NCBI GenBank assembly: GCA_030680835.1
Contig: JAUXUD010000071.1
Location: forward strand, 1-58,032
Direction: 5' to 3'
Length of the DNA stretch: 58,032 bases
Origin: Bacteroidota bacterium
Lineage (GTDB): Bacteria; Bacteroidota; Bacteroidia; UKL13-3
A model generated the notes under the pieces. It saw only the letters and a program-made list of their open reading frames with translations. It was not told where the DNA came from and did no database searches. The position numbers and the translations under genes are program-made. Shown here one piece after another: positions 4,675 to 19,692 of this stretch. Positions within the stretch are counted from its first letter, which is position 1. Each line of letters opens with the position of its first letter.

Positions 4675-7134
4675 ATGAATTTACTTTTGTCTGATCTGGA
4701 TTTTTCACGCTGGGATGTTGTTCTTACAACCTTAATTCCGGCATGCATCAATCTGGGTATTTTTGTATATGTTTTTTTCTTTCTGCCTCAAAATGAGACC
4801 AATTATATATTTGGTTTTTTTGTTTTTCTGATCGGATTTTGGCAAATGGGGGATGGCTTGGGCAGAATGAGTATTTCTCCTGAAACGGCATTAGAATGGT
4901 ACAGAATTAGTGGTGTTTTTACCATATTTGCCATAACTTTAGGCGTACTTTTCGCAATTAGTATAACAAAAGGCATAAATAACATTTCAAACAGGTATGT
5001 GCTCATGTCTTTGTGTTTTCCTCCAATAATTTTATTGATAATCATCATCGCCAGATTAGATGAATATGACATATTTACATCCGAAAAATGGTATTGGGTA
5101 GTCAATCCCAAACCTACTTTTGTAACTTCCATCATTTACCTCTGGATTTCATTCGGATCCTTCTTAATGCTTGCTTTGTTTTGGTATAACTATTTAAGAA
5201 CAGATGTGGGAGAGAAAAAACAAATACAGCTCTTCTTACTGGCTGTTGGATTTACGATTCCGGTACTGGGTGGTTTAACAGCAGAAGTTCTTTTCCCCTT
5301 CTTTTTAAAGATGGATGTGATTCCCGTTTCATCACCTTTATTATCGATATTTTCAATTACATCTTTAATTGCCATTAAAAAATTCAATTTACTGGAATAC
5401 TCACCCAAATACAAATGGAATCAAATCCTTGAATCCATGAATGAAGGGATTCTTATCGTTGATAATGATGACAGAATTATGTATGCCAATAAAATATTTT
5501 GTGAATTGTTGGGTTATAAATTTAAGGAATTAAATGGGAAGGTGGCGAATAAATTCTTGTTTGATGGTTCGGAACTTCCACAAATAAAAAAGGAGCTTGA
5601 AGAAAGAAAGCACAACAAACAGGTGCAATATGAAATACAATTAAAATCAAAAACAGGTGAAAAAATATGGGTGGTTATAAATAGTTCGCCATTTACAGAT
5701 AAAGCAGGAAATATTATTGGTTCAATAGGAATCCAGACAAATATTAATCAGGAGAAAAAAGGAGAGGCATTGTTCAGGGCAATGGTTGAAAATGTAGAGG
5801 AGATTATTACTCTGACTGATAAAGACAACAAAGTAATTTATGTGAGTCCGGCAATTGAGAAAGTAACCGGATATACGCCGGAGGAAATAAACGGAAAGCC
5901 AATTTTTGATCTGATTCATCATGATTGTATTGAGGAAGAGAAAGTCAGTTATCAGAACCTGATAATCAGTCCGGGTATTTTCGTACCACGTGTTACCTGC
6001 ATTGTACACAAAAATGGGAATTTAGTATGGTTAGAAGGCAGTGTAACCAATTTATTGAACGATCCCAATATTCATGCCATCGTTACGAATTATCACGATA
6101 TTACAGACAGGAGGGCTGCCGAAGAAAAGCTCAGGAATAATGAAGAAAGGCTCAGAACCATTATTGACACTGAACCGGAGTGTTTAAAAATTGTTTCTGT
6201 TTCGGGCGAATTATTGGAGATGAATCCATCCGGAATTTCAATGTTGGGTATTAAAAAAAGTGAAGATATAATTGGAAAAAAAATACTAGATTATATTCAT
6301 CCCGATGATAAAAGTATATACACAGACCTGCACAAAAAAGTTTGCAAAGGCGCGTCGGGTCAGGCTGTTTTTCGTGTAATTGGAACTGAGCAATTGCCAA
6401 AATGGATGGATTCCAGTTCGGCACCACTAAGAAATTTAAACGGAGATATATACGCGGTTTTAAGTCTTACCCGTGATATTACCAAACAAAAAGAAGCGGA
6501 AGAAAAACTTAAAGCATCCGGTGAAAGGTATGATATTGTTGCCAAGGCAACCAGCGATACCATTTGGGATTGGGATATTTTAAGTAACAGAACCCAGTAC
6601 AATGAGGGTTTAACAAAAATGTTTGGATATAACCTGAGTGATATACCGGAGGTAAGCGGGTGGTGGGATGAGAAAATTCATCCTGAAGATGTAGAAAGAG
6701 TAATAAATACTGTAGAAGAATTCTATAATTCAGGCAATTCGAACCTGAAACTGGAGTATCGTTTTCTCTGTTCCGATGGATCATACAAATTTATTTTAGA
6801 CAGAGCTTTTTTAATCAGAGATGAGTCGGGTAAAGCAATAAGAATGATTGGAGCCATGCAGGACATTACTGAACGAATAAAGCAGATAAAAGAAATTGAA
6901 GAACAAAACAAAACACTTCGTGAAATAGCCTGGACGCAATCACATATTGTGCGGGCGCCACTTGCCCGAATTATGGGAATTGTTAACCTGTTCAACACAA
7001 ATGCAATCAACGAAGAAGAAACCCGGGAGTTTCTTAATTATATATTAACATCAGCCAATGAATTAGATCAGGTGATAAAAACCATCGTTTTAAAAGCCAA
7101 TTCGGAAGTAAAGAACAATCCTCCCGAAAATTGA
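4675..7134 (+). CDS. 7TM-PAS4 sensor ending in an ATPase-less DHp domain
   Basis: This is a membrane sensory protein of 819 residues. Seven hydrophobic segments (about 15-237) match the seven-helix N-terminus found on some histidine kinases. Four PAS domains follow at about 245-360, 361-482, 488-608 and 613-735; the last is of the PAS_3 type (WDWDILSNRTQYNEG...WWDEKIHPEDV). A coiled coil then leads into a HisKA-like helix pair with the H-box SHIVRAPLARIMG (His757). The protein stops 62 residues after this His, before any HATPase_c domain (no N, G1 or G2 boxes). The acidic residue normally just after the His is Ile, and the usual Thr at His+4 is Ala. I infer a signalling or phospho-relay role rather than autokinase activity. 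It is followed by two paralogs on the same strand. Confidence 0.85.
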   Translation: MNLLLSDLDFSRWDVVLTTLIPACINLGIFVYVFFFLPQNETNYIFGFFVFLIGFWQMGDGLGRMSISPETALEWYRISGVFTIFAITLGVLFAISITKGINNISNRYVLMSLCFPPIILLIIIIARLDEYDIFTSEKWYWVVNPKPTFVTSIIYLWISFGSFLMLALFWYNYLRTDVGEKKQIQLFLLAVGFTIPVLGGLTAEVLFPFFLKMDVIPVSSPLLSIFSITSLIAIKKFNLLEYSPKYKWNQILESMNEGILIVDNDDRIMYANKIFCELLGYKFKELNGKVANKFLFDGSELPQIKKELEERKHNKQVQYEIQLKSKTGEKIWVVINSSPFTDKAGNIIGSIGIQTNINQEKKGEALFRAMVENVEEIITLTDKDNKVIYVSPAIEKVTGYTPEEINGKPIFDLIHHDCIEEEKVSYQNLIISPGIFVPRVTCIVHKNGNLVWLEGSVTNLLNDPNIHAIVTNYHDITDRRAAEEKLRNNEERLRTIIDTEPECLKIVSVSGELLEMNPSGISMLGIKKSEDIIGKKILDYIHPDDKSIYTDLHKKVCKGASGQAVFRVIGTEQLPKWMDSSSAPLRNLNGDIYAVLSLTRDITKQKEAEEKLKASGERYDIVAKATSDTIWDWDILSNRTQYNEGLTKMFGYNLSDIPEVSGWWDEKIHPEDVERVINTVEEFYNSGNSNLKLEYRFLCSDGSYKFILDRAFLIRDESGKAIRMIGAMQDITERIKQIKEIEEQNKTLREIAWTQSHIVRAPLARIMGIVNLFNTNAINEEETREFLNYILTSANELDQVIKTIVLKANSEVKNNPPEN

Positions 7135-7260
7135 AGTAATTAATTTTTTACAGACAGAATTTCGTTTATTTTAGTATTGTTGTATTTTTAAAGTATTAAA
7201 TATACCTTAGATTACTTATTATCAATTGTACTTAAATATTAGGATAAAATATTCCAGGAA

Positions 7261-8352
7261 ATGAATGAAAGTGAAAATGAAAAAGCAACACAGAAAAGGT
7301 CTGAAACCGTTATTTCAATCGAAAATAAAAGACTCCTGGAAGAATTGAGTCAAAGTGCGGCAAACCTCAAGGCTATTTTTGATAATACCTCCGAAGGATT
7401 TATTCTGATTGATACATTATGTATTGTTAAAGAATTTAATGGAAAGGCAAGGGAAATTATTTCTAAAAATCACAAAGTAAAAACAGAATTGCAAATTGGG
7501 AAAAACTTTTTCGATTTTATAGAATCATCAAGAAGAGAATATTTGCACCAAATGATTTCAAAAGTATTTAACGGCGAAACCATTGTGTATAACCGCTCCT
7601 ATTGCCAGGAAAATAATCAGGTGGTTTGGTATCGTTTTTCAATAAACCCGGTTAAAACAGAAGGCTCTGTTGTGGGTGCCTGCATATCGGGACTGGATAT
7701 AACTTCACAAAAAGCAGCGGAACATGAAAAGTTAGCGGAGCAGGAAAAACTAAAAATTACCAAAGAACGATATGATGTAGTTGCCAAGGCAACTAGTGAT
7801 ACGATATGGGATTGGGACCTTGTGAACGACACAACTCAATACAATGAAGGGATTCTGAAGATGTTTGGATACAAGGAAATAGAGGTAGGTATTTCCAATA
7901 TTAGCGGATGGTGGGATGAAAAACTTCATCCGGATGATGTGAAAAGAGTAACAACTATTGTAGAAGGATTTGCAAATTCTGAAGCTACTAATCTGCAACT
8001 GGAATATCGTTTTAAATGTGCTGATGGTACATACAAGTTTATTTTGGACAGGGCTTTTGCCATTAGAAATGAATCGGGTAAAGCAATAAGAATGATTGGA
8101 GCCATGCAGGATATTACAGAACGAACCAATCATTTGAAAGCCATTGAAGAACAAAATGCCAAGTTTCGTGAGATAGCATGGACACAGTCTCATGTGGTGA
8201 GAGCGCCTTTGGCACGCATCATGGGATTGATTGATTTAATTGAAAACGAACCGCATAAAAACGGAGATACAGTAGAAATTTTAGGATATATAAAATCTTC
8301 AGCAAAAGAACTCGACAATGTAATCAGGGAAATAGTATATAAAGCAGTATAA
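7261..8352 (+). CDS. Soluble PAS2 protein ending in an ATPase-less DHp domain
   Basis: This 363-residue cytoplasmic paralog of the flanking genes has no membrane segments. A charged N-terminal helix precedes a first PAS domain (about 30-150, SNLKAIFDNTSEGFILID-like) and a PAS_3-type second one (about 165-290). That second domain is very close in sequence to the last PAS of the upstream protein (IWDWDLVNDTTQYNEG, WWDEKLHPDDV, IRMIGAMQDITERT). The C-terminus is EIAWTQSHVVRAPLARIMGL with His311, and the chain ends 52 residues later with no ATP-binding domain. It may form hetero-oligomers with its two membrane paralogs through the shared helix pair; this is inference. The gene lies 126 bases after the previous stop, so it could be co-transcribed or have its own promoter. 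Confidence 0.85.
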   Translation: MNESENEKATQKRSETVISIENKRLLEELSQSAANLKAIFDNTSEGFILIDTLCIVKEFNGKAREIISKNHKVKTELQIGKNFFDFIESSRREYLHQMISKVFNGETIVYNRSYCQENNQVVWYRFSINPVKTEGSVVGACISGLDITSQKAAEHEKLAEQEKLKITKERYDVVAKATSDTIWDWDLVNDTTQYNEGILKMFGYKEIEVGISNISGWWDEKLHPDDVKRVTTIVEGFANSEATNLQLEYRFKCADGTYKFILDRAFAIRNESGKAIRMIGAMQDITERTNHLKAIEEQNAKFREIAWTQSHVVRAPLARIMGLIDLIENEPHKNGDTVEILGYIKSSAKELDNVIREIVYKAV

Positions 8353-8413
8353 TCTAAGGTTAAGTAAAATGTGACTAATAATAACATTAAAATACCAGTG
8401 GCTAAAACTGCTT

Positions 8414-10552
8414 ATGTTTAGTCGTTATATTTTATTATTATTGAATTATATTTTGACTGCAATTTTATTCAATCTTGATTTCTCACGTTGGGATGTTGTA
8501 CTGATGACATTTGTTCCGGCATGCATTAATATTGGAATTTTCATTTATGTTTTGTTCTTCCTGCCTCAAAACGAAACCAATTATTTATTTTCCATTTTTG
8601 TTTTTCTGATTGGTTTCTGGCAATTTGGGGATGGATTGGTAAGAATGAGTGTTACCGCAGAATCTGCCTTGCTGTGGTACCGAATGAGTGGCATTTTTAC
8701 TTTGTTTACATTGCCTTTTGGAATACTTTTTATTTTCAGCATTACCCGGGGTATTGAATATATTTCGAACCGGTTCGTGCTTATCTCTTTATTTTTGCCT
8801 CCGATAATTTTCCTGCTATTTATAATAGCCGGTTTGGATACTTACAACATTATTGAATCAGAAAACTGGTACTGGATTGTTAACCCGGTACCCGATTTTT
8901 TTACAAATGTAATTTACCTTTGGATCTCACTTGGGTCTTTAATTATGCTCGCCTTATTATGGCACAATTACTTAAAAACAGTTGAAGCCAAAAAGAAACA
9001 AATTCAAATATTGATACTGGCTGTCGGGTTTACAGTTCCGGTGACAGGTGGTTTGATTGCAGAAATTTTATTTCCACTTATTTTAAAGATAAATACAATA
9101 CCACTATCCACTCCTTTATTAACCGTTTTTTCGGTAGCATCATTAATTTCTATTAAAAAATTTAATTTATTAGAGTACTCACCCAAACATAAATGGAATC
9201 AGATACTTGAATCCATGAATGAAGGAATATTGATTGTAGATAATGATGAGAGAATCATGTATGCCAATAAAATATTTTGTAAAGAATTGGGTTATGAATT
9301 TGAAGAAATAGATGGGAAAATAGCCCGTGAAATATTGATTGATGTTTCTGATTTACCGCAAATGGAAAAGATAATTGAAGAAAGAAAAAACAATATATTC
9401 TCTATATATGAAATGCCGATAAAGTCGAAATCGGGTATAAAATTGTGGATGGAAATTAATGACTCACCGTATACAGATAACGCAGGTAAAATTATCGGTT
9501 CGATTGGAATTCAGAAAAATATAACAGAGCGAAAAGAAACTGAAATAAAATTAAATGCAGCAAAAGAAAGATATGATATTGTAGCAAAAGCTACCAGCGA
9601 CACCATTTGGGATCTGGATATTGTTCACGACAGGATGCAATATAATAATGGTATTTATGCAATGTTTGGATATTCCATTCAGGAGGTTGAGCATCTGGGA
9701 GATTGGTGGAAGGAGAAATTACACCCGGAAGATTTTTCAAACGTTACCACTGCACTTTCCGAAATGTACGAAAAAGGGCTGACACACCTTCAGATTGAAT
9801 ACAGGTTTCGCTGTGCCGACGGCTCATATAAATATATTTTCGACAGAGGGTTTTTGATTAAAAATGAAAAAGGTGAACCGATAAGAATGATAGGAGCCAT
9901 GCAGGATATTACGAAACAAAAAAATGAAGAAAACAGGTTAAAATTACTTGAATCTGTGATTACAAATACAACAGATGCTATTGTGATTACCGATATTGGA
10001 GATGAAAATAATGAGATGAAAATAATTTATGTAAATAAAGCATATGAAAAAATGACGGGATACACCTTTGAAGAAGTTATAGGTAAGAATCCAAGAATAT
10101 TACAGGGGCCGGATACAGATAAAAATGAATTGAAGCGATTAAAAATTTCCATGAATAATTTTGAACCCTGTGAAATAGAAATTATCAATTATAAAAAAAA
10201 TGGAGAAGCTTTTTGGACAGATATTTCACTTGCACCTGTGTCAGATTCGAGGGGTAATTATAAGCATTGGATTGGCATAAAAAGAGATATCACAGAGAAA
10301 AGAAAGCAATTATTTGAAATTGAAGAACAAAACAGGAAACTTAAAGATATTGCCTGGACACAATCTCATATAGTAAGAGCACCTTTGGCCAGGTTGATGG
10401 GATTGATAGATTTGTTCAATACAGATGCAATTGATGCGCATGAAATCAAAGAGTATTTAAATTATATTTTGAAATCTGCAAATGAGTTGGATGAAGTTAT
10501 TAGAAGTATTGTTTTGAAAACAATAACGGAAGCTGATAAGAAAATTGAATAA
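8414..10552 (+). CDS. 7TM-PAS3 sensor ending in an ATPase-less DHp domain
   Basis: This is a 712-residue paralog of the gene at 4675. Its seven-helix N-terminus aligns almost residue for residue (LDFSRWDVVL, CINIGIFIYVLFFLPQNETN, NKFNLLEYSPKHKWNQILESM-like region). It has three PAS domains at about 262-375, 380-505 and 510-630. The third resembles LOV/PAS_9 domains, with the motif GKNPRILQGPDTD at 557-569, but Pro560 replaces the flavin-reactive Cys, so flavin-adduct photochemistry is not expected. The H-box SHIVRAPLARLMG has His652, and the protein ends 60 residues later without an ATPase domain. The start at 8414 is uncertain: the residues before NLDFSRWDVV are not matched in the paralog. 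Confidence 0.83.
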   Translation: MFSRYILLLLNYILTAILFNLDFSRWDVVLMTFVPACINIGIFIYVLFFLPQNETNYLFSIFVFLIGFWQFGDGLVRMSVTAESALLWYRMSGIFTLFTLPFGILFIFSITRGIEYISNRFVLISLFLPPIIFLLFIIAGLDTYNIIESENWYWIVNPVPDFFTNVIYLWISLGSLIMLALLWHNYLKTVEAKKKQIQILILAVGFTVPVTGGLIAEILFPLILKINTIPLSTPLLTVFSVASLISIKKFNLLEYSPKHKWNQILESMNEGILIVDNDERIMYANKIFCKELGYEFEEIDGKIAREILIDVSDLPQMEKIIEERKNNIFSIYEMPIKSKSGIKLWMEINDSPYTDNAGKIIGSIGIQKNITERKETEIKLNAAKERYDIVAKATSDTIWDLDIVHDRMQYNNGIYAMFGYSIQEVEHLGDWWKEKLHPEDFSNVTTALSEMYEKGLTHLQIEYRFRCADGSYKYIFDRGFLIKNEKGEPIRMIGAMQDITKQKNEENRLKLLESVITNTTDAIVITDIGDENNEMKIIYVNKAYEKMTGYTFEEVIGKNPRILQGPDTDKNELKRLKISMNNFEPCEIEIINYKKNGEAFWTDISLAPVSDSRGNYKHWIGIKRDITEKRKQLFEIEEQNRKLKDIAWTQSHIVRAPLARLMGLIDLFNTDAIDAHEIKEYLNYILKSANELDEVIRSIVLKTITEADKKIE

Positions 10553-11023
10553 TTTATAAAGCAATACTTTTCATTCCGTTCAAATAATGTCGCACTTAAG
10601 GTCTTTTTACTGACGATTTAGCGCAATTTCACCGCTCAGCCATTCAGATAAATATTTCAGCCACTAAAATAAGTTTTACAATTATATTAAATTAAGCTTA
10701 ACTTTTTGTTAAGGCTATTTTTTAACTTATTTAAAATGAGTCTTCAACCATAGAATTGTAGTAAAAAAAACCACAATTTTTTTTATTAATCAATTACAAA
10801 ACAAAAATATTTGTCACTATTTATTTTTTTTCCTACTGCACCTTAGTTTGTGTACATAATGCTGCTAAAATAATTATACTTCCATTCGCATAATATAATT
10901 ATCAATTCAGATTAAACTAAAATGAGGTTTCTTTTAACAATAGCGATTATTAATACACTGCTTGTGTTGAGCCAAAAGTTGGTTGTGTGTAAGGCTTATG
11001 CTAAAAAAAATGCAAAAACCAAT
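10553..11023. other. Long AT-rich intergenic region between PAS and secretion genes
   Basis: These 470 bases separate the PAS trio from the secreted-protein cluster. They hold a candidate intrinsic terminator at 10754-10784 and a weaker hairpin at 10697-10713 (CTTAAC, five T, GTTAAG) followed by a T run. There is also a partial -7-like box (TTAGTTTG at 10843-10850, one mismatch to TAnnTTTG) without a well-placed -33 TTG. The reading frame open from 10922 continues into the secreted protein, but its first 34 residues look like leader read-through. I see no RNA gene. Confidence 0.5.
10754..10784 (+). terminator. Candidate intrinsic terminator after the PAS trio
   Basis: AATTGTAGT (10754-10762) can pair with ACCACAATT (10770-10778), with one mismatch, across an all-A loop. 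A run of T follows to 10784. It is in the right place to end the PAS-gene transcript 200 bases after the last stop. The stem is AT-rich, so its efficiency is uncertain. Confidence 0.45.
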
Positions 11024-12475
11024 ATGCTGTTCAGAATATTTTTTTCGATTATTTTGATTATTAACTGTTTAATATATAATCCCTTATCCGCACAACCTTG
11101 TACAGGAAGTACTCCAAGTTATACAATTGATCTTACCGGAAATAATGACAGCATCTGGACCAGCCCCAATGTGAGCAGGGACGGTAATTGTTGCGCAACA
11201 GCCAACTGTATCGAATTTAATATCACACTGGATCCTTTATCAAGTGGTATTCAGATAGACATTATTTCGGGAGCAACGCCAGGTGGTGCCTTAGATTACC
11301 AGGTGTCATGCGGTCCTGCACAACCTTTTGGCCAGCCTGTTTGCCTTTCGGGTACAGGTCCTTTCAGAATAACTTTTTGTAAGCCGGGTAATAATCCCAA
11401 TGTTTATCAAATTACTTCAATTCCCAAACCTGAGATAAATGGTAATCTTGCGGGTTCAACCAGTTGCGGAATTTATATGAAAGCAACGGGATATGAAATA
11501 TTGGGACTTACATGGACTTCATTACCTTTTGACAGTACTATCAATAACTATTTAAGCTGCAGAAATGATTGCGATTCAGTGAGTGTAGTTCCGGGACCCG
11601 CAGTTTACCCTTTAACTCTTGTATACCAGGTATGTGGCAATGTAATTGGGGGGTGTTTTCCTGCAGCAACCTGTGATACAATTACTTTACGCCTTTCTGC
11701 AAATCCGGTTGTACGGATTACTCCTGAAAATCCAATTGTTTGTTATGGAAGTGCAACCACTGTTATTACGGCAAATCCTACCGGTGGATTTGCCCCCTAT
11801 CAATTTGTCTGGAATGATAATGACACATCCCGGGTTAAATCGGTTGGTGTGGGTACCTATCGGGTAACCATGACAGATTCGGTAGGCTGCATAACTGCGA
11901 GAGATACGGTTGTGGTTACCGGATTTAGTGCACCATTTGTAGCCAATGCCGGCACTGATACCACCATATGTGCATCAACAACATCACTAAATTTAAACGG
12001 AAGTATCCAGGTTGCCAGCGGAGGAATATGGAGTGGTGGGTCAGGAACCTATAATCCGGGAAACACTTCTTTAAATGCAACGTATTCCCCTTCTGCTGCC
12101 GAAATAAATGCAGGTGGGGTCAACCTAATTCTTACAACAACAGATAATAGTGGTTGTACAGCCGTTAGGGATACGGTTCATTTCACCATTAATCCTGTAC
12201 CTGCACCTGTAATCAGCGGGGATACACTTCCCTGTTCGGGCAGAACAAAGAGCTATCTGGTAACACCTGTTGCCGGAAGCAATTATCTGTGGACCGTAAG
12301 CGGGGGAACACTGTCAGGTTCAAATACCAATAACCTTGTTAATATTATCTGGGGAACTGCAGGAAGTGGTAATGTAACCATAAAACAGACCAACAGTTAC
12401 GGATGTGAATACACAGCACAAAGAAGTATAAACATTCTGGCATCTCCGGGGCCGGCAACACTCTATCATTATTAA
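11024..12475 (+). CDS. Secreted Ig/PKD-like repeat protein without sorting domain
   Basis: This encodes an exported surface-type protein of 483 residues. I placed the start at 11024 because MLFRIFFSIILIINCLIYNPLSAQ is a good signal peptide, whereas the upstream in-frame Met (10922) gives a second, unlikely hydrophobic leader. After a Cys-rich N-terminal region (CTGSTPSYTID...CCATANC) come SprB-like and Ig-like modules: VVRITPENPIVCYGSATTVITANPTGG, then FVANAGTDTTICAS..., then a PKD-like module from about residue 400 (SGDTLPCSGRTKSYLVTP...YLWTVSGG). The chain stops at the end of that module with ...GPATLYHY and has no type A or type B T9SS C-terminal domain. It is the first gene of a cluster with related proteins and a PorP/SprF gene, which suggests T9SS-linked surface function. 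The exact role is unknown. Confidence 0.75.
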   Translation: MLFRIFFSIILIINCLIYNPLSAQPCTGSTPSYTIDLTGNNDSIWTSPNVSRDGNCCATANCIEFNITLDPLSSGIQIDIISGATPGGALDYQVSCGPAQPFGQPVCLSGTGPFRITFCKPGNNPNVYQITSIPKPEINGNLAGSTSCGIYMKATGYEILGLTWTSLPFDSTINNYLSCRNDCDSVSVVPGPAVYPLTLVYQVCGNVIGGCFPAATCDTITLRLSANPVVRITPENPIVCYGSATTVITANPTGGFAPYQFVWNDNDTSRVKSVGVGTYRVTMTDSVGCITARDTVVVTGFSAPFVANAGTDTTICASTTSLNLNGSIQVASGGIWSGGSGTYNPGNTSLNATYSPSAAEINAGGVNLILTTTDNSGCTAVRDTVHFTINPVPAPVISGDTLPCSGRTKSYLVTPVAGSNYLWTVSGGTLSGSNTNNLVNIIWGTAGSGNVTIKQTNSYGCEYTAQRSINILASPGPATLYHY

Positions 12476-12496
12476 AACCATTAATTATAAAACAAA

Positions 12497-12658
12497 ATGA
12501 AAAGATTACTTACATCAGAAAAAATTATCGAATGGATTTCTATTAACAAGGAAATTCCAAAATGTATTCAGTGCAAGTCGAGAAGTCCGGGCAAAAATTT
12601 TATGCCGAATGAAATATGGATACAAAAACCAAATGAAACAAAAAAAATAAATAACTAA
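12497..12658 (+). CDS. Possible 53-residue small protein with a CxxC pair
   Basis: A short reading frame starts MKRLLTSEKIIEWISINKEI and contains the pair C-I-Q-C at residues 23-26. It ends with a charged Asn/Lys-rich tail and has no signal peptide. It sits between the first secreted protein (21 bases downstream of its stop) and the next one (12682), on the same strand, in a cluster of otherwise secreted products. I do not recognise the family. The length is within chance for AT-rich DNA, although the sequence looks more like a globular peptide than random translation. It may be a real small protein or a remnant. Confidence 0.35.
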   Translation: MKRLLTSEKIIEWISINKEIPKCIQCKSRSPGKNFMPNEIWIQKPNETKKINN

Positions 12659-12681
12659 ACCACAAAATAAATCAAATCATT

Positions 12682-13338
12682 ATGAAAAATTTAAACTTAA
12701 CCAATATGAAAAATTCAATTTTAAAAATTGCTGCTATGTTGCTATTAACAGGGTTAATAACAAGCACTGTAAACGCCCAAAGCACATCAACAACCGATTC
12801 AATTTGTGCAGGATCAACCGGAAAAATATATAAAATATCTGGTTTTGCAGGGAGTACGTACACATGGACCATAAGTGGTAACGGTACACAAGCCAGTGGA
12901 GGAACAAGCGACTCTATTACCATCAACTGGTCATCAACACCGGGAACAGATACCTTAACCGTTGTAGAATCCAACGTCATAGGGTGTTTGGGAGATCCGG
13001 TTCAGTTGGTTGTGGTTCGATTGGTACCACCAACAGTTGTACTCAGCGGAGCCGATTCTATTTGTATAAATTCTGCCACAACCCTGAGCAAACTGCAAAT
13101 GGATTTTACAGGTTATGCACCGTGGACAATCGGGTACACCGAAGCAGGAACAGCCAGAACCGCAACTACTTCTTCAGCTCAGTATAATTTCAACTCCCAG
13201 GTGTTCTCTACATCAGGCGTAAAAAGTTATGTAACTACAACTTTAACCGACAGATTTGGCTGTAGTGGAACCCATACAGGTACCGCATCCGTTACCGTAT
13301 TCCCGAAACCTACCACATCTGCAATAACTCATTACTAG
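12682..13338 (+). CDS. Small secreted PKD-like protein without sorting domain
   Basis: This is a 218-residue exported protein. A signal peptide (ILKIAAMLLLTGLITSTVNAQ) is cut near residue 33. A PKD/Ig-like domain follows with the signature DSICAGSTGKIYKISGFAGSTYTWTISG and ends in VIGCLGDPVQLVV. A second Ig-like unit starts PPTVVLSGADSICINSATTLS and ends VFPKPTTSAITHY, followed directly by the stop. The first module is clearly homologous to the N-terminal module of the next gene (13514). The first gene of the cluster also ends shortly after a PKD-like module with a His-Tyr terminus. There is no recognisable T9SS C-terminal domain, so if it reaches the surface it may do so in complex with the downstream type B protein. 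Met9 is an alternative start. Confidence 0.75.
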   Translation: MKNLNLTNMKNSILKIAAMLLLTGLITSTVNAQSTSTTDSICAGSTGKIYKISGFAGSTYTWTISGNGTQASGGTSDSITINWSSTPGTDTLTVVESNVIGCLGDPVQLVVVRLVPPTVVLSGADSICINSATTLSKLQMDFTGYAPWTIGYTEAGTARTATTSSAQYNFNSQVFSTSGVKSYVTTTLTDRFGCSGTHTGTASVTVFPKPTTSAITHY

Positions 13339-13466
13339 TTCTCGTATTGCTAGTTCCTGTCGAACCCCGGATGGTGCTCTGTACAGCAAGACAGACGCCA
13401 TCTGCGGGTTGACTAAAAAGTGTGCTTTACAGAATGCGCATGTTTGGGTTGTACCGGGAGTTTAAT
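13339..13466 (+). other. GC-enriched, hairpin-capable intercistronic segment
   Basis: About half of the bases at 13341-13460 are G or C (63 of 120 by hand count), clearly above the AT-rich neighbours. AACCC (13363-13367) and GATGG (13370-13374) can pair with GGGTT (13406-13410) and CCATC (13398-13402), with an inner TGCT/AGCA pairing. A frame without ATG also stays open from 13328 to 13465. The segment could be a structured RNA leader or processing element, or a decayed coding tail. I cannot decide which. Confidence 0.35.
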
Positions 13467-13513
13467 GAAATATTTTTTGAGTTTTCATACTTGTTTTCAA
13501 AAAGAATTTAACG

Positions 13514-14548
13514 TTGATCAAAAATATTACCATATCGATTATGTATTTAATTTTTATTGTGGGTGAGGTTCGTTCACAAATAATAGATACGGTATGTCCG
13601 GGTGAACCCAATGTGATGTATACAGTTGATCAGCATCCCGGTTCAAGCTATCAGTGGGATGTTTCCGGTGGAATAATAAAATCAGGCAACGGAACTGCAA
13701 CAATAAGAGTTGACTGGCTGAACCAAACAGGTTTGTACCGCATTTCGGTTATTGAGAAAAATGTTGTGAACTGTACAGGAAATCCTGTGAATGCTTATGT
13801 ACTGATAAAAGGCATCAATTTTCAAATTAATTATCCGCAGGTTGCCTGTATAAATGATACAATTATGTGCTCGGGAAATGGTGGCGACAAGTATTTATGG
13901 AGTAATGGCGACACCAGCAGTATGATAAGAATCAGGCTTATCCAGGACACATTACTTTCTTTGAAAATATCCAGTGCAGCATGTGCATTTTTAAGCGATA
14001 CGTTTATGATGAAAATAAAAGCATCAAAAGGTCCCATAGTTGCATTCACTCCGGATGATGCAGAATTTTACAAAGACCAGAACATTTACTTTAAATACCT
14101 GGGGAATTCACAAGATAAAGTTACCTGGCTGCTGGATAAATCTTCTGTAAGCAGGATTGTGGCTAACAATATAAATGTAACGTTTATGGATACCGGACAG
14201 GTTTATATCAAGCTTATCGCTGTAAACAATTTCGGTTGCAAAGATTCACTGACAAAAATAATCAATATCAAGGATGAAAATATTTTTATTCCCAATGCAT
14301 TTACTCCCAATGGTGATGGTTTAAACGATGTATTTATACCTGTTAGCCATGGAATCAAATCCGTTCATATGGTAGTATTTAACCGCTGGGGCGAAGAAAT
14401 TTATGTTTCAGATTCGATGCAGGAGGGTTGGAATGGGATTTACAAAGGTGAAGTATTGTCGCCCGATGCATATGGCTATTCAATATCGGCCGTGGGTTAT
14501 TCGGGCAGATATTATTATTTCAATGGAACGATTACCCTGTTCAGATAA
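13514..14548 (+). CDS. PKD-like protein with gliding-motility type B C-terminal domain
   Basis: This is a 344-residue T9SS cargo protein. A signal peptide (MYLIFIVGEVRSQ) is followed by a PKD-like domain (DTVCPGEPNVMYTVDQHPGSSYQWDVSGG) like that of the preceding gene. A second Cys-containing module and a third beta-sandwich (FTPDDAEFYKDQNIYFKYLG) follow. The C-terminus is the CHU_C/type B sorting domain at about residues 257-344: FIPNAFTPNGDGLNDVFIP, then VFNRWGEEIY, GWNGIYKG and a final YYYFNGTITLFR. Type B domains direct export by T9SS, usually with a partner SprF-like barrel, and one is encoded at 16766. The start is either TTG at 13514, which gives a charged signal-peptide N-terminus, or ATG at 13541. 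Confidence 0.87.
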   Translation: MIKNITISIMYLIFIVGEVRSQIIDTVCPGEPNVMYTVDQHPGSSYQWDVSGGIIKSGNGTATIRVDWLNQTGLYRISVIEKNVVNCTGNPVNAYVLIKGINFQINYPQVACINDTIMCSGNGGDKYLWSNGDTSSMIRIRLIQDTLLSLKISSAACAFLSDTFMMKIKASKGPIVAFTPDDAEFYKDQNIYFKYLGNSQDKVTWLLDKSSVSRIVANNINVTFMDTGQVYIKLIAVNNFGCKDSLTKIINIKDENIFIPNAFTPNGDGLNDVFIPVSHGIKSVHMVVFNRWGEEIYVSDSMQEGWNGIYKGEVLSPDAYGYSISAVGYSGRYYYFNGTITLFR

Positions 14549-14602
14549 ACGATTGTAAAATGATAAAGATACTATTATTTATTATTCATCACCATTAATA
14601 AA

Positions 14603-16753
14603 ATGCAGATGCGTATACTATATACAAAATTGAATGAACTAATAACAAATCCAGGAACCTGGTCATTTATGACGCTGTTCTTTTTATACGGTTTGTTAAC
14701 TGCAAAAGAACTGAAAACCCAACAGCTTACAACTCCACAGTCATTTCTATTAAAAGAAGCCGAATTACAGGATAACAAACTTTTTGTACTGGGTAAAAAC
14801 AATAATCTGTATAGTTTTAATATACACGAAAAGGCGATTGCAGAAAAAAACGAAAAACACAATATAAAAGGATTGTTTAAAGATTCTACCGGTGTATATG
14901 CATGGAACGATCATGAGTTATATATATACAATATGAAGTTGAATGACTGGAAATTAATCAGGAGTTTTAACGAACGGTATATAAAGGGAATTGTTTCTGT
15001 TAATAATGATGTAAAGGTAATATTTTATGACGGACTTTTATCAATAATGAATCATACATTTAGAAAGTCACCTTATCCGATAATGGAAACAATCAGTGGT
15101 TCATCTTATATAATATGCACAAATAAGTTTCTTTATAGAATAAACAATGAAAATGTATTTGTAAAAATAACCCGGATGGATTCTGCAGCATTTATGAAAG
15201 ACATTTTCAGTTTGAATGACCATATTTTTTACCTGATCAATAACAATCTGAAAGTGGTGGATACCGAACTATTGACAACCACCGGCCTCATATTGCCTGA
15301 TTCGGTTACAAATATTATTGGCTTTTATAAGCAGCATCTTTTTTATAAAAATTCAAAGGGCATAGCTGCATTTAATCCGCTCAATAAAGAAACTTCCCAG
15401 ATCCTCAGTTCGGATGTATTTAATGTTCAATTACTGGATAACGGAAATTTACTATACAACGATGCAGCAGGTAAATGTCTGTATTATCAAAGCGCGTCAC
15501 AAATTACAATAAAAGTTGGAGAGGGAATAAAATCATACCGCATTATTGATTTGCTGGAAGATAAAAATCAAAGTACTATAATTACCTCGGAGGGCTTTAT
15601 TTTTTATCAAAAAAATAAGAGTATTGAGTCATTTATTGACCTGCATGCAGTTTCAGGGAAAATGTACGGAGCGGTGCAAAATAATTCGGAATTGTATGTT
15701 GCCTGTGAAATGGGATTGCTCACTTTCAGCTTAAACACCTCGGAATATTATTTAAACAAGGAACTGAAAGGGATTGAATGCAATTCGATTGTGTTAGCTG
15801 ACAAATACCTTTATATAAGTTCATCGATGAATGGGGTATTTAAAATTAAACCCGGAACAATTTCAGGACGAGAACCTAAAGTATGTGCAATTAACGAAGG
15901 CTTATTGGTTTCATCTACTTACCTGATTAAAAATTACGGAGGTGTTTTATATACCGTATCCAATTCGGGGATATACCGCAAAAGCACGAAGGGAGATAAA
16001 TGGATTGAATACCATGGGAGTGGTTTTATTAAACGGATTACCGGGGTTGCTCATTTTAAAAAGCATTGTGATGCTTTGTTAATTGCCTCTGTTGAACGCG
16101 GGGTTATGAAAACAAATGATGAAGGCAAAACCTATGAATCAATGAACCTGGGCCTGATTGATTCATCCATTATTTCAATGGAAGCAGATTCAAGTGGATT
16201 TTATGTGCTCACAAAAAGCGGGGATATTTATTTTCATCCTCATGATGGGATTGAATGGACGAAAATAAATAAGGGAATGAATATTTTTAATTCGGTTTTT
16301 CTTCATTCAGGATTGCTTTACCTGGTTGATGCAGATAATAATATTAATCTTCTTGAAACGGATGATTTTAAACCGGGAATGCATTCAGACTGGGATATTA
16401 AACCAACCTATTTTCATGGAGATAAAATCAGGATTACTTATAGATTTACAGGACTTACAGGAAAAAGTAACCATGCCGTATTGCAAATTGCATCAATAAA
16501 CGAAAGTTTCAATAAGGCTTCCGTTTTAGTGCATTCAAACCTGCGTGAAGCATCCATGGAATGTGCCATACCCGATACCCTTGCTCCGGGCATTTATCAG
16601 ATAAGATTGGTTGGAACAGACCCTTTTGTACGTTCTGTGAATGCAGTAGCCACGATAGAAGTTAAACAAAAATTACCAGCGCTTGTTCCCCCAATCATAA
16701 AAGCAGAAAATGTTGTGATACCAGAAATTATTCAGGTAGCAGGTATAAAATAA
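14603..16753 (+). CDS. Large exported propeller-like protein of unknown function
   Basis: I do not recognise this 716-residue protein as a named family. A hydrophobic signal or anchor (WSFMTLFFLYGLLTAKEL, about 20-38) follows a basic N-terminus. From about 50 to 590 the chain consists of short beta-rich repeats typical of a beta-propeller (LYSFNIHEK, GVYAWNDHELYIY, GVLYTVSNSGIYRKSTKGDKWIEY). Two of these resemble BNR or photosystem-stability-factor repeats (NSGIYRKSTKGDKW, GVMKTNDEGKTY). The last 110 residues look like a beta-sandwich (HGDKIRITYRFTG...APGIYQIRLVG). It has no sorting domain. It lies between the type B cargo gene and the PorP/SprF gene and may be a periplasmic or surface component of the same system; that is inference from position. 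Confidence 0.6.
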   Translation: MQMRILYTKLNELITNPGTWSFMTLFFLYGLLTAKELKTQQLTTPQSFLLKEAELQDNKLFVLGKNNNLYSFNIHEKAIAEKNEKHNIKGLFKDSTGVYAWNDHELYIYNMKLNDWKLIRSFNERYIKGIVSVNNDVKVIFYDGLLSIMNHTFRKSPYPIMETISGSSYIICTNKFLYRINNENVFVKITRMDSAAFMKDIFSLNDHIFYLINNNLKVVDTELLTTTGLILPDSVTNIIGFYKQHLFYKNSKGIAAFNPLNKETSQILSSDVFNVQLLDNGNLLYNDAAGKCLYYQSASQITIKVGEGIKSYRIIDLLEDKNQSTIITSEGFIFYQKNKSIESFIDLHAVSGKMYGAVQNNSELYVACEMGLLTFSLNTSEYYLNKELKGIECNSIVLADKYLYISSSMNGVFKIKPGTISGREPKVCAINEGLLVSSTYLIKNYGGVLYTVSNSGIYRKSTKGDKWIEYHGSGFIKRITGVAHFKKHCDALLIASVERGVMKTNDEGKTYESMNLGLIDSSIISMEADSSGFYVLTKSGDIYFHPHDGIEWTKINKGMNIFNSVFLHSGLLYLVDADNNINLLETDDFKPGMHSDWDIKPTYFHGDKIRITYRFTGLTGKSNHAVLQIASINESFNKASVLVHSNLREASMECAIPDTLAPGIYQIRLVGTDPFVRSVNAVATIEVKQKLPALVPPIIKAENVVIPEIIQVAGIK

Positions 16754-16765
16754 TATTAAAGAATT

Positions 16766-17776
16766 ATGCAAAAGGCAATAATAAAAATAAGGATTACGGC
16801 TTATGTATTATTATACAGTGCAATTGTATCTGCACAGGAACCTCAGCTTAGCCAATTTTATGCATCCCCGGTATTTACAAATCCTGCCTTTGCCGGATCC
16901 GAAAGAAAACTTCGTATTGTTGGCTCTGTTCGAAACCAATACACAGCTTTAAAAAATAGTTTTAAAACTTCTGTTTTTTCAATTGATGGATATTCACAAA
17001 AATTTAACGGTGGGCTAGGCTTGCTCGCATGTTTTGACGTGGCGGGTGATGGTTTACTAAGAACTATTAATCTTTCAGGCATTTATTCTTACAATATGTC
17101 TGTTAACCGTGATTGGTCTGTAAATGCGTCATTGCAGGGTTCAATAATACAGCGCTCGTATGATGCAACAAAGTTAAGATTTGGAGATCAGTTAAATGAA
17201 TTTGCCGGATACACGGGATTGCCTTCCGGCGATTTGAAAAATATGAATGTTCAGGGCCGGGTATTTTCAAATTTCTCAAGCGGATTTTTAGCATATAGTG
17301 ATAACTTTTACGGAGGCATAGCGGTTCATAATTTGTTTGAACCCAACCAATCACTGATGGATAATAATTACAATAATTCGCAGGTTTTGCTTCGCCGCAG
17401 ATATACCGTACATAGCGGACTTAACCTTTACCTGAGCCGATCGCGTTATAAAATTGATAAAATGATTCTTTCTCCCAATATTCTTTTTATGCAACAGCAA
17501 AGCTTTTATCAGGTGAATTTGGGAATGTACTTTAAAAATAAAGCCCTGACTATTGGAAGCTGGCTCAGACAAACTTCCCGCAATTCGGATGCAATTATTA
17601 TCCTGGTGGGTTTAAAATTACCCGCATTCCGGGTAGGGTATAGTTATGACGCAACTATTTCAAAGTCACGTACTTCCATGGGTGGGTCACACGAATTATC
17701 AATGGCATTTCAGATAAAAATAAACACAAAAACCCCCATTCACAGAAGTAAATATATCAAATGTCCCGATTTATAG
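16766..17776 (+). CDS. PorP/SprF family T9SS outer-membrane protein
   Basis: This is an outer-membrane beta-barrel of 336 residues from the PorP/SprF family, which works with the type IX secretion apparatus and is needed for export or attachment of partner type B surface proteins. The signal peptide ends at VSAQ (about residue 24), followed by the hallmark EPQLSQFYASPVFTNPAFAGS. The rest is amphipathic beta-strands with family motifs such as NGGLGLLACFDVAGDGLL and YNNSQVLLRRRYTVHSGLNL. The gene starts 12 bases after the propeller-like gene and closes the secreted cluster, so the upstream type B protein (13514) is its likely partner. Confidence 0.9.
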   Translation: MQKAIIKIRITAYVLLYSAIVSAQEPQLSQFYASPVFTNPAFAGSERKLRIVGSVRNQYTALKNSFKTSVFSIDGYSQKFNGGLGLLACFDVAGDGLLRTINLSGIYSYNMSVNRDWSVNASLQGSIIQRSYDATKLRFGDQLNEFAGYTGLPSGDLKNMNVQGRVFSNFSSGFLAYSDNFYGGIAVHNLFEPNQSLMDNNYNNSQVLLRRRYTVHSGLNLYLSRSRYKIDKMILSPNILFMQQQSFYQVNLGMYFKNKALTIGSWLRQTSRNSDAIIILVGLKLPAFRVGYSYDATISKSRTSMGGSHELSMAFQIKINTKTPIHRSKYIKCPDL

Positions 17777-17935
17777 TTAATTTAAATAAAAAATCCATTA
17801 TAATTGTATGGTTATTTTATTAGATTTGAAAAAAGTATGATTGATTTAATTCGTTTTTAATATCAAATTTTTGGTTCGATTGCAATTATTAAATAAATGC
17901 AAGCTTGCTCATTATTCACATATAATACCGAAAAG

Positions 17936-19066
17936 ATGGAAATGGAAACAAACATATTATTGGTTGAAGACAATCCACGGGATGCTGCACAACTAAAAAG
18001 CATTCTCGAAGAAATTAATTTCCCGGAAAAGTCTTTATTGATGGCTTCATCATTAAGAGGGGCTATTACTCATGAAGTTTCGAAAAAAAAGATTACACTG
18101 ATTCTGCTGGATTTGAGTCTGCCCGATTGTGATGGAATTAACACGGTAAAATCAATTCGTAATTTTTTTCCGGACAATACGATTATAGTAATAACAACCG
18201 CCCAGGATGAAAATATAGCCATGAGTGCCTTAAGAGAAGGTGCACAGGATTACCTGATAAAGGGAACCTGTTGTGCAGTGGCGATGCGCCGGATTATTAG
18301 ATTTGCACTTGAACGACAGTTAACCTTAAAGAAACTGAATGAAGCGTCTGAATCCAGCTTAAAAGCGGATCAGAAAATAGTACAGATGAATGAACAATTG
18401 AGAAACCTGTCGGCTTATCTGCAAAACATACGCGAAAACGAACGTACAACAATCGCACGTGAAATACATGATGAACTGGGTCAACAGCTTACCGGCCTGA
18501 AAATGGATATTTCTTGGCTCAAAAAAAGATTGCAGAACGATATGCCTGCCAGTGAAAAGGTGAAAGAAATATTATCCTTAATCGATGGTACCATCAAGTC
18601 GGTTAGAAGGATTTCTACAGAGTTACGTCCCGGAATACTGGACGATATGGGATTAATCGCAGCAATCGACTGGCAGAATGTAGAGTTTGGGAAACGGGTT
18701 GGAATCAACTGCAGGTTTGAAAACAGGGTTGAAGAATTGCCTTTTCACAAAAACATTGCCACCGGAATTTTCAGGATATTTCAGGAAACTTTAACAAATA
18801 TTGCCAGGCATGCTGAGGCCAATGAAATTGTTACAACTTTTTATCGTGAAAATCAAAATCTGGTTTTAACCGTGAATGATGACGGCAAGGGATTTGACGA
18901 GTATGAAGTTTCGGAAAAAAGAACCCTGGGACTTATCGGCATGAGGGAAAGAGCTTTTATGATGGGAGGCAAACTCTACATAAACAGCGTAAAAAATAAA
19001 GGGACTACTTCTATTTTGGTGGTTCCGCTTATGACAGAACACAGGGCAAAAGTAATGTCGTTATGA
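17936..19066 (+). CDS. Receiver-HisKA_3-HATPase hybrid histidine kinase
   Basis: This is a cytosolic kinase with an N-terminal receiver domain. I start it at 17936 (MEMETNILLVEDNPRD); the 13 residues possible upstream are unlike the family. Receiver domain: acidic pair in VEDN, phospho-acceptor Asp59 (LLDLSLPD), Thr/Lys pair in TTAQD and LIKG. A coiled coil leads to the HisKA_3 box ENERTTIAREIHDELGQQL with His178, then HATPase_c with N-box FQETLTNIARHAEA, DDGKGFD and GLIGMRERA. There are no membrane segments, so its input must come through the receiver or a partner. Stop and start overlap the next gene as ATGA, so the two are translationally coupled. The kinase lies next to the T9SS cluster but 160 bases away from it. 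Confidence 0.93.
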   Translation: MEMETNILLVEDNPRDAAQLKSILEEINFPEKSLLMASSLRGAITHEVSKKKITLILLDLSLPDCDGINTVKSIRNFFPDNTIIVITTAQDENIAMSALREGAQDYLIKGTCCAVAMRRIIRFALERQLTLKKLNEASESSLKADQKIVQMNEQLRNLSAYLQNIRENERTTIAREIHDELGQQLTGLKMDISWLKKRLQNDMPASEKVKEILSLIDGTIKSVRRISTELRPGILDDMGLIAAIDWQNVEFGKRVGINCRFENRVEELPFHKNIATGIFRIFQETLTNIARHAEANEIVTTFYRENQNLVLTVNDDGKGFDEYEVSEKRTLGLIGMRERAFMMGGKLYINSVKNKGTTSILVVPLMTEHRAKVMSL

Positions 19067-19692
19067 TAAATATTTTAATTGCAGATGACCACGATGTGGT
19101 TAGAAAAGGACTGAAACAAATCATAGAAGAAGAGTTTCACAACTCCCAGATTCAGGAGGCCATTAATGGCAACGAACTATTAAAAAAAGTGCATACCGAA
19201 AAATTCGATATTGTAATCAGCGATATATCAATGCCGGGACGAAGCGGTATGGAATCGTTAAAGCAAATAAAGGAAGAATTTCCCAAATTGCCGGTTTTAA
19301 TATTAAGTATGCATCCTGATGAGGAGTATGCTGTAAGGGCCTTAAAGGCAGGAGCCTCTGGTTATCTTTCAAAGGCAAGTGCTGCCGAAGAATTAATATT
19401 GGCAATACGGCAGATATTAAGCGGCCGGCGTTATATTTCGGCAAATGTTGGCGAAAAACTTGCAGAAAATCTCGACCAGAAACATGATAAGGAACTGCAT
19501 GAAAATTTATCAAACCGGGAATTTGATGTAATGAAAATGATTGCTTCGGGAAAAACCGTTTCGGAAATTGCAAAACTATTTTCTTTAAGTGTTAATACCA
19601 TAAGTACATACAGGGCTCGTATTATGGAAAAAATGTGTTTTAAAACCAATGCTGAACTTACCCACTATGCCATAAAAAACCATTTGGTTTAA
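19063..19692 (+). CDS. NarL/LuxR-family response regulator
   Basis: This is a 209-residue DNA-binding response regulator, the likely partner of the kinase whose stop codon it overlaps (ATGA). Receiver domain (1-120): Asp8-Asp9, phospho-acceptor Asp54 (VISDISMPGRSG), Ser in LILSMHPDE, Lys in GYLSKAS. The C-terminal LuxR-type helix-turn-helix spans about 146-209 (LSNREFDVMKMIASGKTVSEIA, SVNTISTYRARIMEKM). The targets are unknown. The adjacent PorP/SprF cluster upstream and the outer-layer genes downstream are natural candidates. Confidence 0.94.
   Translation: MINILIADDHDVVRKGLKQIIEEEFHNSQIQEAINGNELLKKVHTEKFDIVISDISMPGRSGMESLKQIKEEFPKLPVLILSMHPDEEYAVRALKAGASGYLSKASAAEELILAIRQILSGRRYISANVGEKLAENLDQKHDKELHENLSNREFDVMKMIASGKTVSEIAKLFSLSVNTISTYRARIMEKMCFKTNAELTHYAIKNHLV

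Follow-up and report, generated by a model that had tools for sequence, protein, structure and literature searches.

What does a sensor protein do when it has the phosphoacceptor histidine of a histidine kinase but ends before any kinase domain begins? We examined this question for three neighboring genes in a 58,032-nucleotide stretch of DNA from a Bacteroidota bacterium (here, the window). A sequence-only reading had claimed that the three proteins end 52 to 62 residues after their H-box histidines (His757, His311, and His652) and have no kinase domain, and this was borne out exactly. The open reading frames are intact at the coordinates in Table 1, the C termini lie 62, 52, and 60 residues beyond the His in genes 1, 2, and 3, respectively, and no HATPase domain was found among the Pfam matches of the three proteins.

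Table 1. Positions of the three genes, their sensor regions and DHp-only modules, and other genes of the window discussed in the text.
Feature	Position	Strand	Description
Rho factor	2667-4430		
Gene 1	4675-7134	+	819 aa; 7TM, four PAS, C-terminal kinase-less DHp module
HisKA_7TM sensor region of gene 1	4732-5406	+	PF16927, residues 20-244; 3.9e-11, above cut-off
DHp-only module of gene 1	6892-7110	+	His757 codon 6943-6945; helix-2 Asp798 codon 7066-7068; AlphaFold2 helix hairpin
Gene 2	7261-8352	+	363 aa; two PAS, DHp-only module; no membrane region
DHp-only module of gene 2	8140-8349	+	His311 codon 8191-8193; Asp352 codon 8314-8316
Gene 3	8414-10552	+	712 aa; 7TM, three PAS, DHp-only module
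HisKA_7TM sensor region of gene 3	8507-9184	+	Residues 32-257; 1.3e-10, above cut-off
DHp-only module of gene 3	10316-10531	+	His652 codon 10367-10369; Asp693 codon 10490-10492
Receiver-HisKA_3-HATPase protein	17897-19066	+	Sole HATPase in the window; candidate phosphate source
LuxR-type response regulator	19063-19692	+	52% identical to the regulator beside the second-cluster module genes

The three tails are HisKA-type DHp modules with a phosphoacceptor His, and a profile of the module matched kinase chains in the PDB (best match, 4.1e-9). Pfam HisKA (PF00512) scored 20.2, 24.6, and 20.0 bits on the whole proteins of genes 1, 2, and 3 and 26.6 to 26.9 bits on the isolated tail of gene 1, against a cut-off of 26.9. 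Membership of the modules in the HPt family was rejected: Pfam HPt (PF01627) was absent among matches up to an E value of 10 for the three proteins and the isolated tail, in a search whose filters drop most weak matches. The proteins of genes 1 and 3 are 64% identical over an alignment that includes the 7TM region; gene 2 lacks that region, and what it has in common with genes 1 and 3 is chiefly the last PAS domain and the module. The last PAS domain of gene 3 (residues 511 to 646) has a LOV-like score (NCBIfam YtvA family, 1.6e-43) and reads GKNPRILQG, with Pro at what we take to be the position of the photoactive Cys of LOV domains.

An AlphaFold2 monomer of the module was a hairpin of two helices (residues 2 to 42 and 48 to 81; pLDDT, 92.5; pTM, 0.73), in which the His (residue 25) and an Asp 41 positions further on (Asp+41, residue 66) are predicted to lie roughly level with each other across the turn. 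A Foldseek search with this model gave no match at an E value of ≤0.001; its top rows were the DHp of HK853 (E value, 0.052) and the Caulobacter pseudokinase DivL. Structure comparison (VIA) did not discriminate, because the DHp domains of HK853 and PhoR (Z, 9.2 to 9.6) could not be separated from unrelated hairpins, CHMP4B (Z, 9.7) among them.

Next, we considered whether the missing ATPase domain reflects truncated pseudogenes or sequencing errors; the sequence-only reading had itself allowed for an ATPase domain in a nearby frame behind such an error. A six-frame search of the genome yielded 65 HATPase_c matches, of which one was on the window's contig (18761-19030, inside the gene at 17897-19066) and none, in any frame, followed genes 1 to 3. 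The gaps from genes 1, 2, and 3 to the next gene are small (126, 61, and 369 nt), and since the contig's sole HATPase_c sits in another gene, the domain is not restorable from a neighboring frame. The same search found a tandem array of similar kinases on contig C69 (about 25 to 41 kb): seven consecutive HATPase matches on one strand, of which six lie in open frames of 833 to 866 aa and the seventh in a frame of 143 aa. A broken kinase gene does sit among the module genes of a second cluster in this genome (remnants of a PAS-histidine kinase on contig C104, locus L199, 1605-2102), as decay might lead one to expect. However, 81 copies of the module at 79 named loci all terminate 53 to 74 residues past the His, in stop-free open frames in which the His and the Asp are conserved. 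This conserved end point rules out a pseudogene or frameshift, an explanation to which we assign practically no weight.

We then looked into how the module is distributed and conserved. A scan of one genome per species returned 431 relatives, and the best 80 of these (79 loci, L011 to L089) were analyzed; judged by their titles, they come from Bacteroidetes or Balneolia groups, and 18 of the 79 loci are from Arenibacter, so the counts are not independent events. At the profile level, the module was matched in 32 of 58 genomes sampled from the window's family (1e-8) and in 41 of 296 genomes of the phylum that were at least 90% complete (1e-10). The search patterns of the species-wide scan partly select for the His, while profile searches do not; among 132 distinct kinase-less copies pooled from these searches (closed, short), the His was present in 131, and in 46 of the 47 copies found by profile only. 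Arg at H+3, Pro at H+5, and Asp+41 in helix 2 were present in all 132. The remaining kinase-less relative, L145, carries Tyr instead of His. Conservation of the His and the Asp among distinct kinase-less copies indicates that the module is not a product of decay.

A second set comprised all 94 profile matches in the other genomes of the family sample, with the profile built from kinase-less copies. In this set, 66 proteins had no catalytic domain, 5 had a C-terminal receiver instead, and 23 were full kinases, so that 71 proteins lacked the catalytic domain, a preponderance to be read with the origin of the profile in mind. The number of residues after the His was 52 to 71 in the short class and 207 to 213 in the full kinases, with only the receiver fusions in between. 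The His and the Arg at H+3 were kept in 94/94 matches, including all 71 without a catalytic domain, and Pro at H+5 was kept in 91/94 (64/66 of the kinase-less proteins). Asp+41 was present in 66/66 kinase-less, 3/5 receiver-fused, and 13/23 full proteins; some of the kinases thus share it, whereas every kinase-less protein has it. Loss of the His in orthologs, another outcome that the sequence-only reading had entertained, is contrary to what both sets contain, and retention of the His without a kinase domain indicates that the module is under selection. With IAW-x-QSH-x-VRAPLAR plus Asp+41, the family has a motif of its own.

The residues next to the His formed the chemical argument of the earlier reading. 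In the tested HisKA proteins, mutants showed that an acidic residue at H+1 is required for autokinase activity and Thr or Asn at H+4 for phosphatase activity (PMC3510030). Genes 1, 2, and 3 have nonacidic residues at H+1 (Ile, Val, and Ile) and Ala at H+4 in all three, as had been claimed, which fits a loss of both activities. Across the family, this pattern is no rule. A hydrophobic H+1 (Val, Ile, Leu, or Met) was found in 116 of the 132 distinct copies and in 49 of the 71 family-sample copies without a catalytic domain and is therefore typical only. At H+4, Ala occurred in 117/132 and Thr or Asn in none, but this position is not diagnostic, because the closest full kinases also have no Thr or Asn there (0/23; Ala in 12, Ser in 9, and Leu in 2). 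Their H+1 residue was Asn in 21 cases, Ser in 1, and Asp in 1. Thus, only the shift to a mostly hydrophobic H+1 tracks the loss of the catalytic domain.

These residues also bear on the idea that the proteins are sensor-controlled receiver phosphatases, a role suggested by Galperin et al. in 2018 for archaeal HisKA-only proteins (PMC5847659). The H+1 acid is dispensable for phosphatase activity in the tested HisKA proteins, so that its absence would be compatible with such a role, but the Thr or Asn needed at H+4 is absent, and the His, which is not strictly needed for the phosphatase activity of EnvZ and CrdS (PMC3510030), is nearly invariant in the modules. We consider this role very improbable.

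The partners of the module were assessed in the 81 kinase-less genes of the 79 loci. A receiver was fused in front of the module or encoded adjacent to it in 48 genes, and 33 had neither; by position, 31 genes had an N-terminal receiver, 31 had an upstream single receiver, and 16 had a downstream receiver. The upstream and downstream receivers were of two distinct types, each confined to its own side in every case. Among adjacent same-strand ORFs of <260 aa, 48/74 were receivers, compared with 18/273 ORFs of that size elsewhere in the same loci (5/58 two genes away, 12/192 further away, and 1/23 adjacent on the other strand); the difference between adjacent same-strand ORFs and those three or more genes away was significant (Fisher test, P value = 9e-23), although the receiver profiles (A4 and A5) were built from some of the neighbors that were later counted. 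The other ORF positions of the same loci served as the control here; receivers near signaling genes are common generally, a caveat to this comparison. In the complete genome of Marivirga arenosa (L032), the order is a kinase, a 144-aa Rcp1-like receiver, a 339-aa receiver-PAS-module protein, and a 124-aa receiver.

The upstream single receiver matched RcpA/RCP1 structures (3e-48 to 9e-46) and resembles Rcp1-type receivers, here leading to a kinase-less module gene. The downstream set was distinct, with 13/13 matching PF00072, and this type was found in 45 of the 58 family genomes (1e-20), compared with 32 for the modules. Elsewhere in the family sample (57 genomes), the downstream type started 24 to 44 nt past a module in at least 15 cases, all without a catalytic domain, was fused to at least 2 modules, and trailed at least 8 full kinases by 503 to 526 nt. 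This pattern of spacing and fusion indicates that the kinase-less module replaces the kinase in kinase-receiver pairs. The five modules with a C-terminal receiver in place of the ATPase domain are those of L105, L212, L220, L241, and L250; the fused receiver of L220 looks degenerate.

The acceptor Asp was intact in 22/31 upstream, 30/31 N-terminal, and 16/16 downstream receivers. The nine exceptions upstream are the Arenibacter receivers (9/9; L014, L016, L018, L025, L039, L040, L044, L049, and L070), which carry Asn both in place of the acceptor Asp and at the second acidic position and are pseudo-receivers, and a simple relay leaves them unexplained. They would suit a docking role without phosphorylation, in which the helix pair would serve to dimerize PAS sensors and to bind or sequester receivers, with the His as a binding surface and not a phosphate carrier. 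The Tyr of L145 points the same way, and PhyT also sequesters its regulator (PMC5898713). Nevertheless, a His that is this constant in both sets, together with the intact acceptor Asp in nearly all fused and all downstream receivers, goes beyond what a docking surface needs, and we regard docking alone as unlikely.

The earlier reading had offered phosphotransfer, decoy, or dimerization as roles of the module. Of these, the receiver partnerships, as fusions and operons, make phosphotransfer the best-backed reading. The three proteins of the window are probably DHp-only sensory phosphotransferases in a relay, akin to Spo0B, ChpT, or PhyT minus the C-terminal domain. The basis for this is their domain anatomy, the absence of the ATPase domain, the conservation of the His, and the linkage of their relatives, by fusion or operon, to receivers with an intact acceptor Asp. 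We infer the dimerization, phosphorylation, direction of transfer, and gating of the module proteins. In such a relay, PAS (and 7TM) inputs would be joined to a DHp hairpin that dimerizes and bears a phosphorylatable His, and with the ATP-binding domain lost, the module proteins cannot autophosphorylate from ATP. A receiver domain would first be phosphorylated by a full kinase and would then donate its phosphoryl group to the module His, from which the group would move on to another receiver, a single-domain one, or the reverse could occur as a drain. The PAS domains would gate the phosphotransfer step. Counting against a relay, besides the Arenibacter receivers, are the 33/81 module genes without a fused or adjacent receiver, the window's three among them, as well as the Tyr of L145 and the unspecific H+4 position.

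Since no receiver is adjacent or fused to any of the window's three genes, their partners would act in trans. At 1e-20, the downstream receiver type has seven strong matches in the window's genome. Three of these, single-domain receivers on contigs C10, C3, and C78, had no kinase in the surroundings examined, and their contigs gave no HATPase match; these lone receivers are candidate partners of the three modules.

A full kinase lay upstream, directly or past a single receiver, in 28 of the 81 module genes, and full kinases with a related DHp occur in the same genomes (the 23 among the 94 matches). Both observations would also suit a split or mixed-dimer kinase, in which a full kinase, for instance as the partner in a heterodimer, would use its ATPase domain to phosphorylate the module in trans. 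Such mixed pairs are known, as in the case of RetS-GacS (PMC12148439), and RetS is also a weak sequence match. Against this, the H+1 acid needed for autokinase activity (PMC3510030) is replaced mostly by hydrophobic residues here, a point that the Asn of 21/23 full relatives makes not conclusive, and no ATPase-only gene adjoining the modules was noted in a locus listing based on a few kinase seeds. We judge a mixed dimer to be improbable.

In the window itself, the kinase at 17897 and the regulator at 19063 are about 7 kb from the three genes. Between the three genes and this pair, at 10922-17776, genes with PKD-like, SprB, CHU_C, and PorP/SprF domains make up a surface cluster of the type IX secretion or gliding type. 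A search of the genome with the module of gene 1 found six strong copies and one fragment: five are complete and short-ending (three in the window and two on contigs C53 and C104), the sixth is cut by a contig end, and the fragment is on C73. Weaker matches included full kinases (L008 to L010). Five complete copies in one genome, together with the 71 of 94 matches elsewhere that lack the ATPase domain, indicate that the short-ending form is more than chance. The second cluster spans C53 and C104, two contigs with a 141-nt overlap at their ends, and encodes a 1,127-aa PAS protein with a module, a GAF-PAS protein with a module, the broken kinase, a PAS-HisKA_3-HATPase kinase, a LuxR regulator, a single receiver, and, truncated where the contig stops, a PAS-module protein. 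Locus L087 has the same order of HisKA_3 kinase, LuxR regulator, receiver, and module protein. The paralogous HisKA_3 kinase/LuxR pair amid the second-cluster module genes and beside the module gene of L087 is a hint, and only a hint, of a link to the modules. The tandem arrangement noted earlier is real in the window and is seen again in the second cluster, but among the 58 family genomes the 7TM versions are confined to this one. The 7TM part of gene 1 had no match in any other of them at an E value of 1e-5; we therefore rejected a conserved tandem of three, and the window's triple looks lineage specific.

Several known systems resemble these proteins in part. Spo0B has a C-terminal domain after its DHp, and neither Spo0B nor ChpT is known to have PAS or 7TM inputs. 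In both, a helical hairpin pairs with a second one to form a His-bearing four-helix bundle that transfers phosphate from receiver to receiver without autophosphorylation; ChpT has a Bergerat-like C-terminal domain (PMC3433190), whereas the window's proteins stop shortly after the His. In the Pak-SdrG-PhyT-PhyR relay, a single-domain receiver passes phosphate to a DHp phosphotransferase and on to a regulator (PMC5898713). As is proposed here for the modules, PhyT is a membrane sensor with a DHp His that accepts phosphate from a single-domain receiver and relays it further, and its origin is suspected to be a kinase; its catalytic domain is thought to be degenerated (PMC5898713), while in the window's proteins it is absent. 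Compared with sensor histidine kinases, the three proteins share the HisKA-type DHp and lack HATPase_c and the H+1 acid. Clostridial Ptp proteins were rejected as a counterpart, as rows of a review table give HisKA plus HATPase for them.

HisKA proteins without HATPase are already known as a class. Galperin et al. described archaeal "nonenzymatic HK-like proteins" with PAS/GAF sensors and HisKA but no HATPase, including AF_1472 (receiver-PAS-HisKA), and suggested phosphoacceptor, phosphotransfer, or phosphatase roles with unknown partners (PMC5847659); P2CS classes HisKA-only proteins as "phosphotransfer proteins" (PMC2716373). As these two sources describe the class (PAS/GAF domains, a C-terminal HisKA-like domain with a conserved His, and no HATPase), the window's three proteins belong to it. 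The known cases are archaeal or database categories whose partners are unknown; the present family, in contrast, is from Bacteroidota, has a distinctive motif and recurrent receiver partners, and is likened to the archaeal proteins by description. Searches of an open-access library turned up no paper on the family or on its receivers and none with the motif VRAPLAR. Because the modules score under the Pfam HisKA cut-off or resemble broken kinases, annotation passes over them.

It is possible, if still tentative, that the Bacteroidota have a large and as yet undescribed class of PAS-DHp sensory phosphotransferases that take their input mid-phosphorelay, have dedicated single-domain receivers, and do without the H+1 acid, perhaps with Asp+41 of helix 2 substituting for it. 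The role and partners of HisKA-only proteins were left open by Galperin et al. (PMC5847659); the operons and fusions described here name concrete partner pairs and therefore open the question to in vitro tests. Should the modules indeed work in a relay, input at the phosphotransferase step would be a design of general use, one that counts of kinases and regulators in these bacteria would miss.
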